NCBI RefSeq assembly: GCF_001419695.1 | Contig: NZ_LIRG01000168.1 | Coordinates: forward strand, 1-32,187 | DNA length: 32,187 bases | Origin: Streptomyces prasinopilosus | GTDB taxonomy: Bacteria; Actinomycetota; Actinomycetes; Streptomycetales; Streptomycetaceae | Direction: 5' to 3' | Part shown: positions 25,188-31,003 of the stretch, one piece after another | Layout: every line of letters starts with the position of its first letter | How positions within the stretch are numbered: position 1 is the stretch's first letter | The notes under the pieces: generated by a model | The model's database searches: none | Told to the model about the DNA's origin: nothing | Seen by the model: only the letters and a program-made list of their open reading frames with translations | Position numbers and translations under genes: made by a program

Positions 25188-25942
25188 TCCGCGGCCTCCT
25201 GGATCTCCGCGGCCCGGGCGGCCTCCGCCGGCTCGGCCGTGGCCGCGGTCGCGGCGGCCGTGGCCGCAGCCGCGGCTCGTTCCGGGCCGAGCGCGGCTAC
25301 GCGCTTCGCCTCTTCGACGGCCGTGTCGAAACCGGCCTCCGGGTTCCGCCGGAGCAGTTCGGTGGCACGGGCGTGCGCGGCCACCGCCGGGTCGGGGTGC
25401 CGCGCGGCCTTCTCCAGGGCGGGGCCGACCGCGTCGCCGAGGCCGGTCAGGGCCCGGCTCAGGCTCAGTTGCACGGTGCGGTCGCCCCGGCCGAGTTGCA
25501 GGACCAGCTCGTCGGCCAGGTCCTTCTCCTCGCCCTCCGGCACGAGGGCGACCGCGACGCGCCACGCGGTCCGCGCGACCTCGTCATCGGCGTCACGCAG
25601 CATGTCACGGGTGATCCAGGCCCACGTGTCCTCGTCGCCGATCTTGGAAAGCGTGTGCAGCGCTTGACCGCGCGCCTGACGGCGCCCGGAGTCCAGTTCC
25701 TTGCGGATCCGGGGCAGGGTGATCTCCCGCGAGAGGCGGGTCAGCGCCCAGGACAGCATGTCCCGCACGAAGAAGTCGGGCTCGACGGCGCACCGTTCGA
25801 CGAGCGTCTCCAGGAGTGCGGGGTCGGCGCTCGAGCCGGCGGCCAGGGCCGCCTGCAGCCGGACCGACGAGTCCTCGGCGCTCAGGGCCTTGAGCACACG
25901 GGCGTTCTGCGGGGTCACGTTGGTCGTGTGGATCGGGACCAC
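25181..25942 (-). CDS. HEAT-repeat protein, first gene of the MerR operon
   Basis: A protein of up to 253 residues built of HEAT-like repeats: EDSSVRLQAALAAGSSADPA, EPDFFVRDMLSWALTRL, GRRQARGQALHTLSKIGDED, DDEVARTAWRVAVALVPEGE, DRTVQLSLSRALTGLGD, DPAVAAHARATELLRRNP. The tail is Ala/Glu-rich. There are no catalytic motifs, so a protein-binding scaffold is likely. It is co-transcribed with, and overlaps, a MerR regulator carrying the same repeat type. The start is unclear: GTG 25942 overlaps the best Shine-Dalgarno (AGGAGG, 25942-25947), an ATC sits 8 bp after that site, and GTG 25918 is the next normal codon. The coordinates give the longest form. Confidence 0.8.
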   Translation of the reverse strand: MVPIHTTNVTPQNARVLKALSAEDSSVRLQAALAAGSSADPALLETLVERCAVEPDFFVRDMLSWALTRLSREITLPRIRKELDSGRRQARGQALHTLSKIGDEDTWAWITRDMLRDADDEVARTAWRVAVALVPEGEEKDLADELVLQLGRGDRTVQLSLSRALTGLGDAVGPALEKAARHPDPAVAAHARATELLRRNPEAGFDTAVEEAKRVAALGPERAAAAATAAATAATAEPAEAARAAEIQEAADC

Positions 25943-25954
25943 CTCCTGTGCCCG

Positions 25955-25985
25955 AGTGAAGACCTTATCAACGTGTCAAGGTCAA
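25955..25985 (-). promoter_or_regulatory. MerR-type promoter and dyad operator
   Basis: On the minus strand TTGACC (25985-25980) is followed after 19 bp by TTCACT (25960-25955). The 19-bp spacing is the hallmark of MerR-controlled promoters. The spacer and -35 edge contain a 23-bp dyad, GACCTT-N11-AAGGTC (25961-25983), which is likely bound by the MerR-HEAT protein encoded two genes downstream of this site. The -10 is weak, as expected for an activator-dependent promoter. Confidence 0.6.
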
Positions 25986-25989
25986 GCCC

Positions 25990-26566
25990 GTGGCCCTGAC
26001 GGTCCTGGACGCGGGCACGCCGTTCGAGGCGGTGGCCTGCGTGTCCGCCCCACCGGGACTGCCGTGGACGCCGCCGGACCTGCTTCGGCTCATCGGTCCC
26101 GCGCTCCCCCTGCGCGTCGTCCCGAGGCCGAGCGGCTGCCGGACGGCGTCATGCAGGCCCTGCGGCAGTTCGTGAACCGGGCGGCGCGGGAGGGGGCGCC
26201 GGTGCGAAGGCGGCGGATCGTCCGGAGACGGTGTGAGGCGATCGTCGCTGAGGGCCGGGGGGTCACGATGTGTCGTTCTCCGAGTGCGGCACCGTTTCGG
26301 CCGGGGTGGCCCGGCCGTACCGGCGGAGTGCCGGGCAAGCGGGCGAACCGCCGGGCCACGGTCGGCGCGCGACCACCGGCACCGCGTCGTGCCCGCTGGA
26401 GGGGGAGCTGCCCCGCCCGAGGAAGGGGCGGACGGTGACCCGGGGCGCCGGACGGCCCGGGTGACCGACGGGGTCGGCCGGTCGAGGGCCGCGTACGGCA
26501 CCACCACGTCACCTCGTCACCGCCGCCCGGGCCTTCTGCACCCTGCGGCGGTTCGCACCGGAAACC
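25990..26566. other. Intergenic stretch, no gene called
   Basis: About 570 bp. Plus-strand frames (for example LTVLDAGTPFEAVACVSAPP near 25990, and ALRQFVNRAAREGAPVRRRR near 26160) have short protein-like pieces but no coherent gene or Shine-Dalgarno. It may be decayed coding sequence. Confidence 0.35.
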
Positions 26567-26639
26567 GAGGTGTCGGCCTGGCCTTGTATCAAATCCTTGA
26601 GTGCATAAAGGATTTGATACAAGGCCAGGCCGACACCTC
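26567..26639. repeat. Perfect 32-bp inverted repeat with 9-base loop
   Basis: Bases 26567-26598 are exactly reverse-complemented at 26608-26639, with the loop GAGTGCATA at 26599-26607. The inner half (TTGTATCAAATCCTT) is A+T-rich in a very GC-rich region; the outer half is GC-rich. Both strands are open across the element and encode the same peptide core (VGLALYQIL then KDLIQGQAD). It lies 67 bp beyond the stop of the minus-strand membrane-protein gene, so it could terminate that transcript, although no T-run follows. A miniature mobile element, a structured RNA or a protein-binding cruciform are alternatives. Confidence 0.95.
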
Positions 26640-26705
26640 CACCGCCCGCGGCCGCCCACTCGCCACCGGCAGAGCCCGAGCCCGAGCCCGACGGAGTGCT
26701 ACCGG

Positions 26706-26999
26706 TCAGGCATGCGCGTGACGTGGTGCGGTCGCCCTCCGGGACGCCGCGTGGTGTGCGGGGGTGTCCGGGCTTGCGGCCTTGAGGCGCTGCAGCCACA
26801 GGGAGGCCGTGAGCAGGAGGCCGGTGAAGACGCCCAGGAGGAGGGCGGACACCCACATCTGCCGGCTCCCGGGCGACTGCCAGCCGGTCCAGGCGGTCGA
26901 CGCGGCCCACAGCAGGACGCCTGCCATGTAGAAGGCGCGGATCCGATGCAGCTGCCGCACGGCCCGCAGGGATGTGACGCGATCAGTCTTGGATGCCAT
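26706..26999 (-). CDS. Small two-helix membrane protein
   Basis: A 97-residue protein with a basic N-terminus (MASKTDRVTSLRAVRQLHRI) and two membrane helices, FYMAGVLLWAASTAWTGW (about 24-41) and MWVSALLLGVFTGLLLTASL (about 49-69), then a His/Arg/Ala-rich cytoplasmic tail (PAHHAASRRATAPRHAHA). Two-helix proteins of this kind are common uncharacterised envelope proteins in streptomycetes. No family is recognised. ATG 26999 is preferred; an in-frame TTG at 27032 would add 11 residues. It is followed by the large palindrome and preceded by the zinc-ribbon gene on the same strand, 69 bp away. Confidence 0.65.
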   Translation of the reverse strand: MASKTDRVTSLRAVRQLHRIRAFYMAGVLLWAASTAWTGWQSPGSRQMWVSALLLGVFTGLLLTASLWLQRLKAASPDTPAHHAASRRATAPRHAHA

Positions 27000-27068
27000 G
27001 CCGGCCCGTATACCCCCGTGCACGCCGTTCAACGGTCCAGGTTCGTTCCTGTTGTTCCGCCGGTCGGG

Positions 27069-27263
27069 TCACCTTGGCCCTTGCTCCTGGGTGCGTCCTT
27101 CGAAGTCGCGCCGTACTGCCGCGCCTTGGTCCTCGACGAGCCCTGCATCGTCGGGGAGGTCCAGTACGGCACCGCAGCGCCCGCACAGTTTCCCGTCTTC
27201 GGCCGGCGTACCGCACACCTTGCAGAACCGGTTGCCCTTCTCGTTCTCAGTGTGGTGACTCAT
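27069..27263 (-). CDS. Small zinc-ribbon protein
   Basis: A 64-residue protein. FCKVCGTPAEDGKLCGRCGA holds two CxxC knuckles, the pattern of a zinc ribbon. The rest (VLDLPDDAGLVEDQGAAVRR, then DFEGRTQEQ) is acidic to mixed and without a domain. GGAGAG lies just before ATG 27263, fixing the start, although the frame is open further upstream. Stand-alone zinc ribbons often serve as nucleic-acid or protein adaptors; the role is unknown. It may be co-transcribed with the downstream small membrane protein. Confidence 0.7.
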   Translation of the reverse strand: MSHHTENEKGNRFCKVCGTPAEDGKLCGRCGAVLDLPDDAGLVEDQGAAVRRDFEGRTQEQGPR

Positions 27264-27753: not shown

Positions 27754-29922
27754 TCAGACCGAGACGGGGTCCTCCTCGCGCGTCCTCGCGGCCAGCTGCC
27801 GGTTCAGCTTCTCGCCCTCGATGTCGAGGTCGGGCAGGGCCTTGTCGAGGGGCTTGGGCAGCCACCAGGCGGCACGGCCGAGCAGTGACATCACCGCCGG
27901 GACCAGCGTCATGCGGACGACGAAGGCGTCGATGACCACGCCGACGGCGAGGGCGAACCCGATGGATTTGATGATCGGGTCGTCCATCAGGACGAAGCCC
28001 CCGAACACGGCCGTCATGATGAGCGCGGCGGCCGTGACGACGCGGGCGTTGTGGCCCATGCCGCTGACCATGGCCGCCTGCGGGCCGGCACCGTGGACGA
28101 AGTCCTCGCGCATGCGGGAGACGAGGAAGACCTCGTAGTCCATGGCGAGGCCGAACAGGATGCCGATGAGCAGGATCGGCAGGAAGCTCACCAGCGGGCC
28201 GGGGGTGTCGACGCCCACCAGGCCGGCGAGGTGGCCCTCCTGGAAGATGGCGACGGTGATGCCGAAGGTCGCGCCCACGGTGAGCAGGAAGCCGAGGGCT
28301 GCCTTCAGCGGCACCAGGACCGACCGGAAGACCAGCATCAGCAGCAGGATGGACAGTCCCACCACCAGCAGCAGGTACACCGGCAGGGCGTCGGCGAGCT
28401 TCTCCGAGACGTCGATGCCCAGGGCGGTCGCGCCGGTGAGGGCGATGTCGGCGCCCTCGATGTCCGCGACCCGGTCGCGGATGTCGTGGACGGCGTCCTC
28501 GGTGGCGACGGCGGTCGGGCCGGCCTCGGGGATGATGGTCAGCAGGGCGGTGGTGCCCTGCTCGTTCAGCTGCGGCGGGGCCACGGTCAGGATGCCGTCG
28601 GTGTCCTTGATGAGCGCGGTGGCCTTCTCGGCCGCCGCTCCGGTGGACTGCGCGTCCTCGCCGTTGACGACGGCGATGAGACGGCCGTTGAAGCCCTCGC
28701 CGAAGCCCTCGGACGTCAGGTCGTACGCCTCGCGTGCGGGGGAACCCTCGGCCGCGGTGCCCGCGTCCGGCAGGGCCATGCGCATGTCCTGGGCCGGGAG
28801 GGTGAGTGCGCCCAGCCCGAGGATGCCGACGATCAGGAGCGGGACGCGCAGCTTGGTGACGATCCGGCCCCAGGTGAAGCCGAAGCCCTCGGGGGCGGTG
28901 CCGTTCTCGGCGGCGTGTCCGTCTGCGTGGCGCTGCTTGCGCGGCAGGATCTTCTCGCCGGCGAAGGCGAGGAAGGCCGGCAGCAGGGTGAGGGCGACCA
29001 GCACGGCGACGGCGACGGTGCCCGCCGCGGCCAGGCCCATCACGCTCAGGAAGGGGATGCCGACGACGGAGAGGCCGGCCAGGGCGATGACGACGGTGGC
29101 GCCGGCGAAGACGACGGCGGAGCCGGCGGTGCCGGTCGCGCGGCCGGCGGCCTCCTCGGGCTCGTGGCCCTCGGTGAGGTACTGGCGGTAGCGGGAGGTG
29201 ATGAAGAGCGAGTAGTCGATGCCGACGGCCAGGCCCAGCATCAGCGCCAGGATGGGGGCGGTGGAGGTCAGTTCGATGACACCGGTCAGGGAGAAGAGGC
29301 CGGCCATGCCGACCGCGACGCCGATCAGCGCGTTCAGCAGGGTCATGCCGGCGGCGACCAGCGAGCCGAAGGTGACGACCAGGACCACCGCGGCGACCAG
29401 CACACCGAGCGCCTCGGTGGAGCCGACCTCCACGTCGCCGCCCATGACCTCACCGCCGTGCTCGACCCGCAGGTCCTCGACGTCGGCACCGACGGCCTCG
29501 TAGGCCGACTTCTGCTTGTCGGTGACCTCGTCGGCGGGCTTGTCGAACTGCACCTGGATCAGGGCGTAACGGCCGTCCTGGGAGACGGAGCCGGTCCGGA
29601 ACGGGTCCATGGCGGCGATGACGCCGTCGAGCCCGGAGGCTTCCTTCACCACGGGCGCCACCGCGGCGGGGTCCAGCTTCTCGCCCTCGGGCGCGGCGAG
29701 GACGATGGCGCCGGTGGCTCCGCCGGCCTGGGGGAACTGCCGGTCGAGGTCGTCCAGCGCCCGCTGGGACTCGGTGCCCGGCATGGAGAACTTGTCACTG
29801 GTCGGGCCCATCAGGGTGGCGGCTCCGACACCCAGCAGGATCAGCAGGAGCAGCCAGACCGCGGCTATTCGGCCTTTCCTGCGGAAGGAGAACCGCCCGA
29901 GCCGGTACAGCAAGGTCGCCAT
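27754..29922 (-). CDS. MMPL family transporter (RND superfamily)
   Basis: A 722-residue inner-membrane exporter of the MmpL/YdfJ type with the duplicated RND layout: helix 1 (about 18-38), an extracytoplasmic porter domain (about 40-165), a five-helix bundle (about 170-335), then a second helix-loop-bundle copy. The essential Asp-Tyr proton-relay motifs are present in both halves: LAVGIDYSLFITSRYRQYL (Asp236-Tyr237) and FGLAMDYEVFLVSRMRE. The C-terminal tail is cytoplasmic and charged (NRQLAARTREEDPVSV). Family members export lipids, siderophores or small molecules using the proton gradient; the substrate here is unknown. It lies 26 bp downstream of its TetR regulator in one operon, so it is probably induced by the exported or a toxic compound. 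Confidence 0.95.
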   Translation of the reverse strand: MATLLYRLGRFSFRRKGRIAAVWLLLLILLGVGAATLMGPTSDKFSMPGTESQRALDDLDRQFPQAGGATGAIVLAAPEGEKLDPAAVAPVVKEASGLDGVIAAMDPFRTGSVSQDGRYALIQVQFDKPADEVTDKQKSAYEAVGADVEDLRVEHGGEVMGGDVEVGSTEALGVLVAAVVLVVTFGSLVAAGMTLLNALIGVAVGMAGLFSLTGVIELTSTAPILALMLGLAVGIDYSLFITSRYRQYLTEGHEPEEAAGRATGTAGSAVVFAGATVVIALAGLSVVGIPFLSVMGLAAAGTVAVAVLVALTLLPAFLAFAGEKILPRKQRHADGHAAENGTAPEGFGFTWGRIVTKLRVPLLIVGILGLGALTLPAQDMRMALPDAGTAAEGSPAREAYDLTSEGFGEGFNGRLIAVVNGEDAQSTGAAAEKATALIKDTDGILTVAPPQLNEQGTTALLTIIPEAGPTAVATEDAVHDIRDRVADIEGADIALTGATALGIDVSEKLADALPVYLLLVVGLSILLLMLVFRSVLVPLKAALGFLLTVGATFGITVAIFQEGHLAGLVGVDTPGPLVSFLPILLIGILFGLAMDYEVFLVSRMREDFVHGAGPQAAMVSGMGHNARVVTAAALIMTAVFGGFVLMDDPIIKSIGFALAVGVVIDAFVVRMTLVPAVMSLLGRAAWWLPKPLDKALPDLDIEGEKLNRQLAARTREEDPVSV

Positions 29923-29948: not shown

Positions 29949-30497
29949 TCAACTGGGGGTGTGGTCAAGCGTCCGCAGCGCACTGCGGATCATTTCGGCA
30001 CGCAGCACCTCGTCCGGCGCCACCTCGTCGTCGGTGGCACTGGTGATGAAGACGGCGCCCAGCACCATCCACGCGGCCACCCGGGACGGTGCCCGCTGCG
30101 AGCGGCCGGCCAGCGCGTCCAGCAGCCCGTCCGCCAGTTCCATGACGTTGAGGTCCTGGTGGCAGGACATCTCGGCGATGTCCTCGAAGAGAAGCCGGAT
30201 CTCGCGGCGGAACCGCAGCGTCAGGTCGACGTATCCGACGACGGTCTCCTCCACCAGCCGGCCGCCCTCCAGCCCGGCCACGCGGTCGAGCAGCGTGGCG
30301 AGGGCGTCCCGGGCCGGGGTCAGCAGCTCGGTGAGGATCTTTTCCTTGCCGGCGAAGTGGTAGAGGAGCGACGCCTTCGAGCAGCCCGCGTCGGAGGCGA
30401 TGTCCTGCAACGAGGTGCCGCGGAAGCCGTGCACGGCGAACAGTCGCAGTGCCGATTCGAGGATCTGGCCGCGCATGGCGGAGGCGGAACGTGCCAT
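29949..30497 (-). CDS. TetR-family repressor of the MMPL operon
   Basis: A 182-residue TetR regulator. The N-terminal helix-turn-helix contains ILESALRLFAVHGFRGTSLQ, then DIASDAGCSKASLLYHFAGK with the family YHFAGKE signature. The all-helical C-terminal domain (about 65-182) binds ligand and dimerises (VVGYVDLTLRFRREIRLLFE; MVLGAVFITSATDDE). The GGTGGGGA stretch precedes ATG 30497. A 34-bp palindromic operator begins 14 bp upstream of the start codon. The gene order TetR-MMPL on one strand implies autoregulation together with the exporter. Confidence 0.93.
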   Translation of the reverse strand: MARSASAMRGQILESALRLFAVHGFRGTSLQDIASDAGCSKASLLYHFAGKEKILTELLTPARDALATLLDRVAGLEGGRLVEETVVGYVDLTLRFRREIRLLFEDIAEMSCHQDLNVMELADGLLDALAGRSQRAPSRVAAWMVLGAVFITSATDDEVAPDEVLRAEMIRSALRTLDHTPS

Positions 30498-30510
30498 GTC
30501 CCCACCGTAA

Positions 30511-30544
30511 CTGTCCGATCGGTCAGGACTGACCGATCGGACAG
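30511..30544. promoter_or_regulatory. Palindromic TetR operator
   Basis: CTGTCCGATCGGTCAG (30511-30526) and CTGACCGATCGGACAG (30529-30544) are perfect reverse complements separated by GA. Each arm itself contains the near-palindrome CCGATCGG, so two TetR dimers could bind side by side. Its place directly upstream of the TetR gene makes it the obvious target of that regulator. Confidence 0.88.
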
Positions 30545-31003
30545 TATGTTCCTGTGGCTTGCGTCACTCTCCCCGTCCGGGGCCTGCACGGGAGGCGTGC
30601 GGGACCGGTGCAGGCACACGCGGTGGGCTTCGTCGGCTCGCGCACGGAAGCACCGGCCCTCGGAGGGCGGGGCGCCGGGGCGTCGGGACTCCGGCGGCAT
30701 GCGTTCAAGGGCGACCGGGACGCTTCACGGCATCGTCAGGATGCGGCAGCCGGTGCGGGCGGGGCCTGCGGCGGGTGCGGAGCACCCTGCCCGACACGCC
30801 GAAGTCCTTCCCCTCACCCGTGTCCGGGTCCACGGGGCGCGGATGCCGTCCACGGCCTCGCGCTCGGCGTCCGGCTGCCCGCCGTCCGGCCCGTTGAAGC
30901 CGCCGGCGCGCACGCCTTCCGCTCGCCGCCCCCGGAGTCCGGCGAGAAACCGGTGCGCCGGCACCGTCCGCCCGCCGCGCTGCACCCCCTGCGTGCAAGC
31001 TTC
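30545..31003. other. Intergenic stretch, nothing convincing
   Basis: About 460 bp between the TetR operator and the 3' end of the gas-vesicle-type gene. Open frames are Arg/Pro-rich and lack ribosome-binding sites. Confidence 0.4.

Follow-up and report, generated by a model that had tools for sequence, protein, structure and literature searches.

A perfect 32-bp palindrome in a decayed IS701-family element of Streptomyces prasinopilosus, probably the product of template-switch correction of a quasi-palindrome

The window analyzed here, a stretch of 32,187 nucleotides of Streptomyces prasinopilosus DNA, contains at positions 26567-26639 a perfect inverted repeat whose two arms of 32 nt each are 100% complementary and enclose a 9-nt loop (Table 1). 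An inverted-repeat search confirms the exact arms and loop described in the first-pass annotation, as all 32 arm pairs are Watson-Crick and the stem has no G-U pair. Among the 55 inverted repeats found in the window this is the longest perfect one; the sole other perfect repeat among the 25 of these 55 that were listed has arms of 17 nt, and another inverted repeat with 32-nt arms is 75% complementary. The RNA fold of 26540-26680 has an energy of -89.2 kcal/mol (z = -11.1), and none of 200 shuffles folds as well. The annotation had proposed a search for other copies, which returned none: the palindrome is present once in its own genome (6.4 Mb in 1058 contigs, 89% complete), and among 295 genomes of the genus a match at E 1e-3 is found in its own genome only.

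Elsewhere in the window, at 30510-30545, two perfectly complementary 17-bp arms separated by 2 bases form an inverted repeat just upstream of 29949-30497, a TetR-type gene; the MMPL transporter gene at 27754-29922 is nearby. This repeat looks like the putative operator of the TetR-type regulator. At the start of the contig (1-71) there is an inverted repeat of 23 nt (96%), which has one copy in its own genome.

Table 1. Features of the palindrome, the element relic and the neighboring gene (positions in the window)
Feature	Position	Strand	Evidence or remark
IS701-family transposase relic, residues 106-133 of the L062 open frame	26118..26201	+	tblastn, 57% identity, E 7e-12 jointly with 26267..26428
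Transposase relic, residues 155-209, another frame	26267..26428	+	tblastn, 45% identity
Internal deletion site	26478..26496	+	19 bp here; in L062 the flanking matches (2781 and 3417) are 635 bp apart
Main transposase frame, relic of its end	26499..26578	+	HHHVT, then LVTAARAFCTLRRFAPETEVSA in a shifted frame; 59% identity, E 5e-4; HHHVT alone E 2.2
Slippery heptamer position	26557..26563	+	CCCAAAA in relatives, ACCGGAA here (lost); positions counted by eye
Left arm of the perfect inverted repeat	26567..26598	+	Codes the GVGLALYQIL relic, + strand extension frame
Relic of the -1 frame C-terminal extension	26572..26694	+	46% identity to the L152 extension, E 8e-6
Loop, 9 bases	26599..26607	+	Inverted-repeat search
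Right arm	26608..26639	+	Over its inner part (pairs 11-32) complementary to the left arm, and less like the 57 related copies than any single copy is like the others
Decayed right end of the element	26688..26705	+	CCGACGGAGTGCTACCGG vs CTAACGAAGCACTACTAG in relatives; 11/18 alike, the 7 differences all transitions, by eye
Host gene	26706..26999	-	DUF2530 match scoring 21 bits (cut-off of 25.5 not reached); stop codon directly next to the element

A flank search finds, in many genomes, repeated elements that match 26122-26477; the far end of these same elements matches 26497-26710. Relatives L062 and L060 encode IS701-family transposases (NF033540, 419.5 and 342.7 bits against a cut-off of 150; DDE_5), and pieces of the window align to the L062 transposase in changing frames, at residues 106-133 and 155-209 and weakly at 439-465; in the relic of the main frame, the TGA stop codon of most relatives reads TGG. 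Judged by this homology, the hairpin lies in the 3' end of a decayed IS701-family element, recognizable pieces of which extend from 26118 to the right end at 26705. Members of the IS701 family measure 1400-1550 bp and make a 4-bp target duplication, according to passages of PMC2266710. The relatives share with that family NF033540 scores above the cut-off and, in L062, inverted ends and a length of about 1.4 kb; CTAG is found at both ends of three G049 copies. The window copy differs in that it is, on alignment, a dead fragment and not a complete mobile element: the catalytic core is deleted, the frames are broken, and the left end was not found when sought in 25601-26200 (best match E 0.019 over 36 bases). 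Matches to this right end occur in 120 of 392 genus genomes. Locus L061 on contig C726 of the same genome carries another IS701 transposase fragment, interrupted by an internal stop, and the element family therefore occurs in this genome more than once.

The minus-strand gene beside the element is found at 13 other public loci, all from Streptomyces. Similarity to the window reaches 26704 in six of them and stops between 26705 and 26815 in seven, and none of the 13 matches the relic or the hairpin at E 1e-2, some of these loci holding only 140-210 bases beyond the gene. The hairpin therefore arrived with the element and did not belong to the gene. Of three of these loci that were searched for inverted repeats, L174 has one of 17 nt, unrelated, some 420 bases downstream. 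The DNA past the stop codon in L173, L174 and L175 is unlike the window and unlike one another; that of L173 looks transposase-like in sequence, and the site beyond the stop codon is possibly an insertion hotspot.

Both strands are open across the palindrome and read the same peptide, as the first-pass annotation had noticed. The plus frame reads GVGLALYQILECIKDLIQGQADT and lies inside a mechanical ORF at 26233-26721 that has a GTG start and no Pfam match, and the minus frame reads GVGLALYQILYALKDLIQGQADT inside 26509-26910, also with a GTG start. However, a perfect palindrome reads identically on both strands except in its loop, and the shared peptide is therefore not independent evidence of coding. 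Long overlapping ORFs abound in the G+C-rich window, which has 144 of 90 aa or more, and the basic tail NRRRVQKARAAVTR of the minus strand is the antisense of a stretch coding VTLVTAAQAFLTLRR in relatives (read by eye). On alignment, the plus-strand GVGLALYQIL.. frame is a relic of the C-terminal transposase extension (GLTLYQVLDALQDLLRCWTGTCTTC), so that of the proposed palindromic gene the plus-strand coding origin stands, as a relic, and a separate palindromic gene or two-strand coding is not supported.

The other identities considered for the palindrome are affected in different ways. The suggestion of a MITE was right in pointing to a mobile element, of which the palindrome is a part; several copies with terminal repeats are required of a MITE itself, and the palindrome has one copy in its own genome and a match in one of the 295 genus genomes. 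No intrinsic terminator of the T-tailed form was found when both strands of 25900-27100 were searched for a hairpin with a T-run behind it, and the idea of a known structured RNA drew no match at gathering scores in an Rfam search of the window and five relatives' loci. The 141 bases around the hairpin match no phage record; among plasmid records there is one match, to a TetR gene of a Nocardia plasmid, covering 36% of the query. The exact 19-base arm pattern does not occur in the viral contigs searched.

The origin of the arms can be followed by comparison with related copies of the element. The 73 bases of the palindrome align without gaps with 25 such copies, which derive from 40 rows after 12 were dropped by end pattern (eight family copies with cut or changed ends and four second hits outside the subfamily) and two were merged as identical, so that the 25 copies and the window itself remained; L087, one of the 25, is cut by its contig end. 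A wider set of 57 copies was taken from 90 by keeping those with at least 50 of the 73 bases alike to L082 (33 dropped), and several of these come from one genome and are therefore not independent. Over the same stretch, the L082 extension reads DAGLTLYQVLDALQDLLRCWTGT in frame -1 to the transposase. Of 46 registers scanned in the family, that of the window pairs best (0.52 vs at most 0.40 for the others), and therefore the family carries a quasi-palindrome. In this register the window has 32 of 32 Watson-Crick pairs, compared with 12-23 (mean 16.6) in the 57 copies. The locus is a relic homologous to these copies and in register with them, and its pairing lies far above theirs. Under a simple model of independent mutation in which half of all changes are transitions, the probability of reaching 32/32, averaged over the 57 copies as ancestors, is 4e-14, 9e-15 and 1e-16 at site divergences of 0.15, 0.27 and 0.43, respectively, and for the best single ancestor it is 10^-11.6 (about 3e-12).

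The two arms did not change alike along their length. At the 14 pairs that are mismatched in the consensus of the 25 copies, the window has changed the right side only in six, the left side only in five and both sides in three; at five further pairs that are already paired in the consensus, both sides have changed. Six of these eight doubly changed pairs show a C to T or G to A change in the left arm. The inner right arm (pairs 11-32) agrees with the consensus at 10 of 22 positions and has six bases never seen in the 57 copies, with a mean log2 p of -3.04 against a family minimum of -1.51, whereas the inner left arm agrees at 15 of 22 positions, has no never-seen base and a mean log2 p of -1.34, so that it too is less typical than every family member (leave-one-out, -1.10). 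In the outer ten pairs (1-10) the left arm matches the consensus at 5 of 10 positions and the right arm at 8 of 10; here both values (left -1.69, right -1.42) are within the family range, and the lone never-seen base is on the right. Over all pairs, identity to the consensus is 19/32 for the left arm and 18/32 for the right.

The explanation that we consider very probable is that the quasi-palindrome of an IS701 relic was perfected by template-switch (quasipalindrome) correction, most likely without a selected function. In the starting state, the 73 bases would have coded the -1 frame extension, as they do in relatives, and formed an imperfect inverted repeat centered on the codons for QVL..LQDL. 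A replication or repair polymerase may then have taken one arm as the template for the other, so that the inner right arm would have been rewritten from the left arm and, perhaps and much less surely, the outer left arm from the right; the case for this outer-tract copying is weak. Point changes in one arm would likewise have been carried over to both, leaving a perfect 32-bp stem. Such correction best explains at least one tract, perhaps two: the changed bases are the complement of the other arm with length kept (32/32 pairs, 0 gaps), and 11 of the 14 mismatches were fixed one-sidedly. Against it stand the mixed direction, the three mismatched and five paired positions altered on both sides, and the atypical state of the inner left arm itself. 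One clean left-to-right copy was rejected, as both arms are equally near the consensus, which makes a single such event insufficient, and the asymmetry expected of it is confined to the inner pairs. No sister genome with an intermediate arm state was found, and the polymerase mechanism, together with the number and order of the events and their timing after the death of the element, is what we infer from this pattern.

Selection might instead have perfected the stem if the IS relic had been taken over as the 3' hairpin of the gene at 26706-26999, either as a terminator without a U-tract or as an mRNA stabilizer. Terminators of this type have been reported for actinobacteria. The hairpin lies 66 nt downstream of the minus-strand gene's stop codon and its fold is very stable, as takeover would have it, but selection on RNA would allow G-U pairs, of which the stem has none, no T-tailed terminator was found on either strand around it, and none of the 13 other loci of the gene matches the hairpin or the relic at E 1e-2. 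Takeover is therefore regarded as unlikely. An artefact of assembly or amplification is the least credible of the readings, even though the assembly is a draft of 1058 contigs and the perfect form was seen in its own genome only, because a fold-back would run into the reverse strand; past the second arm, the sequence here keeps the element register (0 gaps over 73 positions against the 25 copies).

It is also quite improbable that the hairpin is a working part of a diverged subfamily of the element, such as a stem-loop that stimulates frameshifting or regulates transposition. The family as a whole lends this some support, since its copies fold better than shuffles (mean z -2.15, with 30 of 57 below -2, compared with a mean of -0.78 for a 60-base upstream control) and pair best in the window's register, the inner 8 pairs being 77% Watson-Crick against 8-42% when slid. 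However, the window copy is without its catalytic core and its main frame is broken, and in relatives many stem pairs are broken on one side (for example, G-C to A-C in 12/57 and C-G to C-A in 13/57). Because inner pairs often break without compensation, the stem is not clearly maintained in relatives, and these breaks weaken the candidacy of the family stem as a conserved frameshift stimulator. In addition, the L062 stem begins 26 nt past the heptamer at which a shift would occur, which is farther than is usual for a stimulator. Template-switch correction of the relic remains the preferred explanation.

The comparison of the arms also exposes a frameshift candidate, unannotated so far, in a common transposase family. 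Comparative evidence suggests that programmed -1 frameshifting at C_CCA_AAA_G probably lengthens the transposase of actinobacterial IS701-family elements, with an extension reaching to or near the right end; the downstream quasi-palindrome within this extension would be a mutation hotspot, perfected in the dead copy of the window. In a survey of 90 distinct right ends other than the window's, 87 had a readable frame and 3 were left out. CCCAAAA is exact in 73 of the 87 and in the register C_CCA_AAA in 69, with another sequence in 14. Counted from the start of the heptamer, the zero-frame stop comes 22 nt later in 68 of the 82 in-register copies (exact or not) and 61 nt later in 8. In the same 82 copies, the -1 frame is open for at least 28 codons before a stop in 69, stops early in 5 and has no stop in the stretch read in 8. 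Sixty-six of these 69 open frames stop after 38-48 codons; a -1 shift would mostly extend the protein by 38-48 residues, among them a C-x2-C motif, to an end in or near the right end of the element. The synonymous share of single-base codon differences is 0.529 in the -1 frame, compared with 0.343 and 0.153 in the other frames, and codon positions 1, 2 and 3 of the -1 frame differ by 0.273, 0.227 and 0.293, which is a weak third-position excess.

An in-frame CCCAAAA with a -1 frame C-x2-C extension is seen in the IS701-like right ends L062, L082, L170, L172 and others, and a Rhodococcus plasmid copy has the same layout. The annotation of all three annotated plasmid copies ends at the zero-frame stop; one of them, L171, has no C-x2-C because its extension changes frame. 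L152, with one more A, reads through in one frame, and L188 from another family of the phylum, also with one more A, gives one open match over 60 of 68 residues (sequence by eye). The extended tail matches 20 of 296 genomes of a phylum sample, mostly weakly. When the heptamer filter was applied to five loci in a check outside the genus, L191 alone passed and belongs to the genus itself; in L190, core and extension are in different frames with no heptamer passing the filter. A weak stem-loop is present downstream of the heptamer in relatives, without compensatory support. The literature matches listed for CCCAAAAG with frameshift include, by title, none on IS elements, and a term look-up found no IS701 in the accessible portions of two recoding papers. 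One of these recoding papers lists large clusters of DDE_Tnp_1 with -1 shifts; relatives may be among them, and therefore the priority of the frameshift is not established.

Overall, a spectacular palindrome is here best explained by mutation and not by function, as a natural case of arm-to-arm copying whose imperfect starting state can still be read in many relatives. It also cautions that perfect hairpins or compensatory pairs are not proof of selected RNA structure.

Several known systems invite comparison. The relatives resemble IS elements with programmed -1 frameshifting in their slippery heptamer, which is in frame, and in the conservation of the -1 frame; unlike the OrfA-OrfB fusion, the product would be a C-terminal extension of a transposase that already holds its DDE domain, and the signal is lost in the window. 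Passages of PMC2266710 describe the IS4 family, the group out of which IS701 was split, as lacking a frameshift. Quasipalindrome correction is treated as an established mutation type in passages of PMC7202029 and PMC8794818, the former describing how template switching at quasi-palindromes perfects them in E. coli and the latter how it can create or repair hairpin stems in evolution. As in those cases, an imperfect inverted repeat appears to have become perfect with the changed arm explained by the other, whereas here the event would be a natural one in a relic, mixed in direction. The coding palindromes of Nematomorpha mitochondria, as portrayed in excerpts of PMC6649704, are likewise perfect inverted repeats overlapping protein-coding sequence; in those genomes the two arms encode conserved protein of working genes, whereas here the right arm has lost the conserved residues and the gene is dead.
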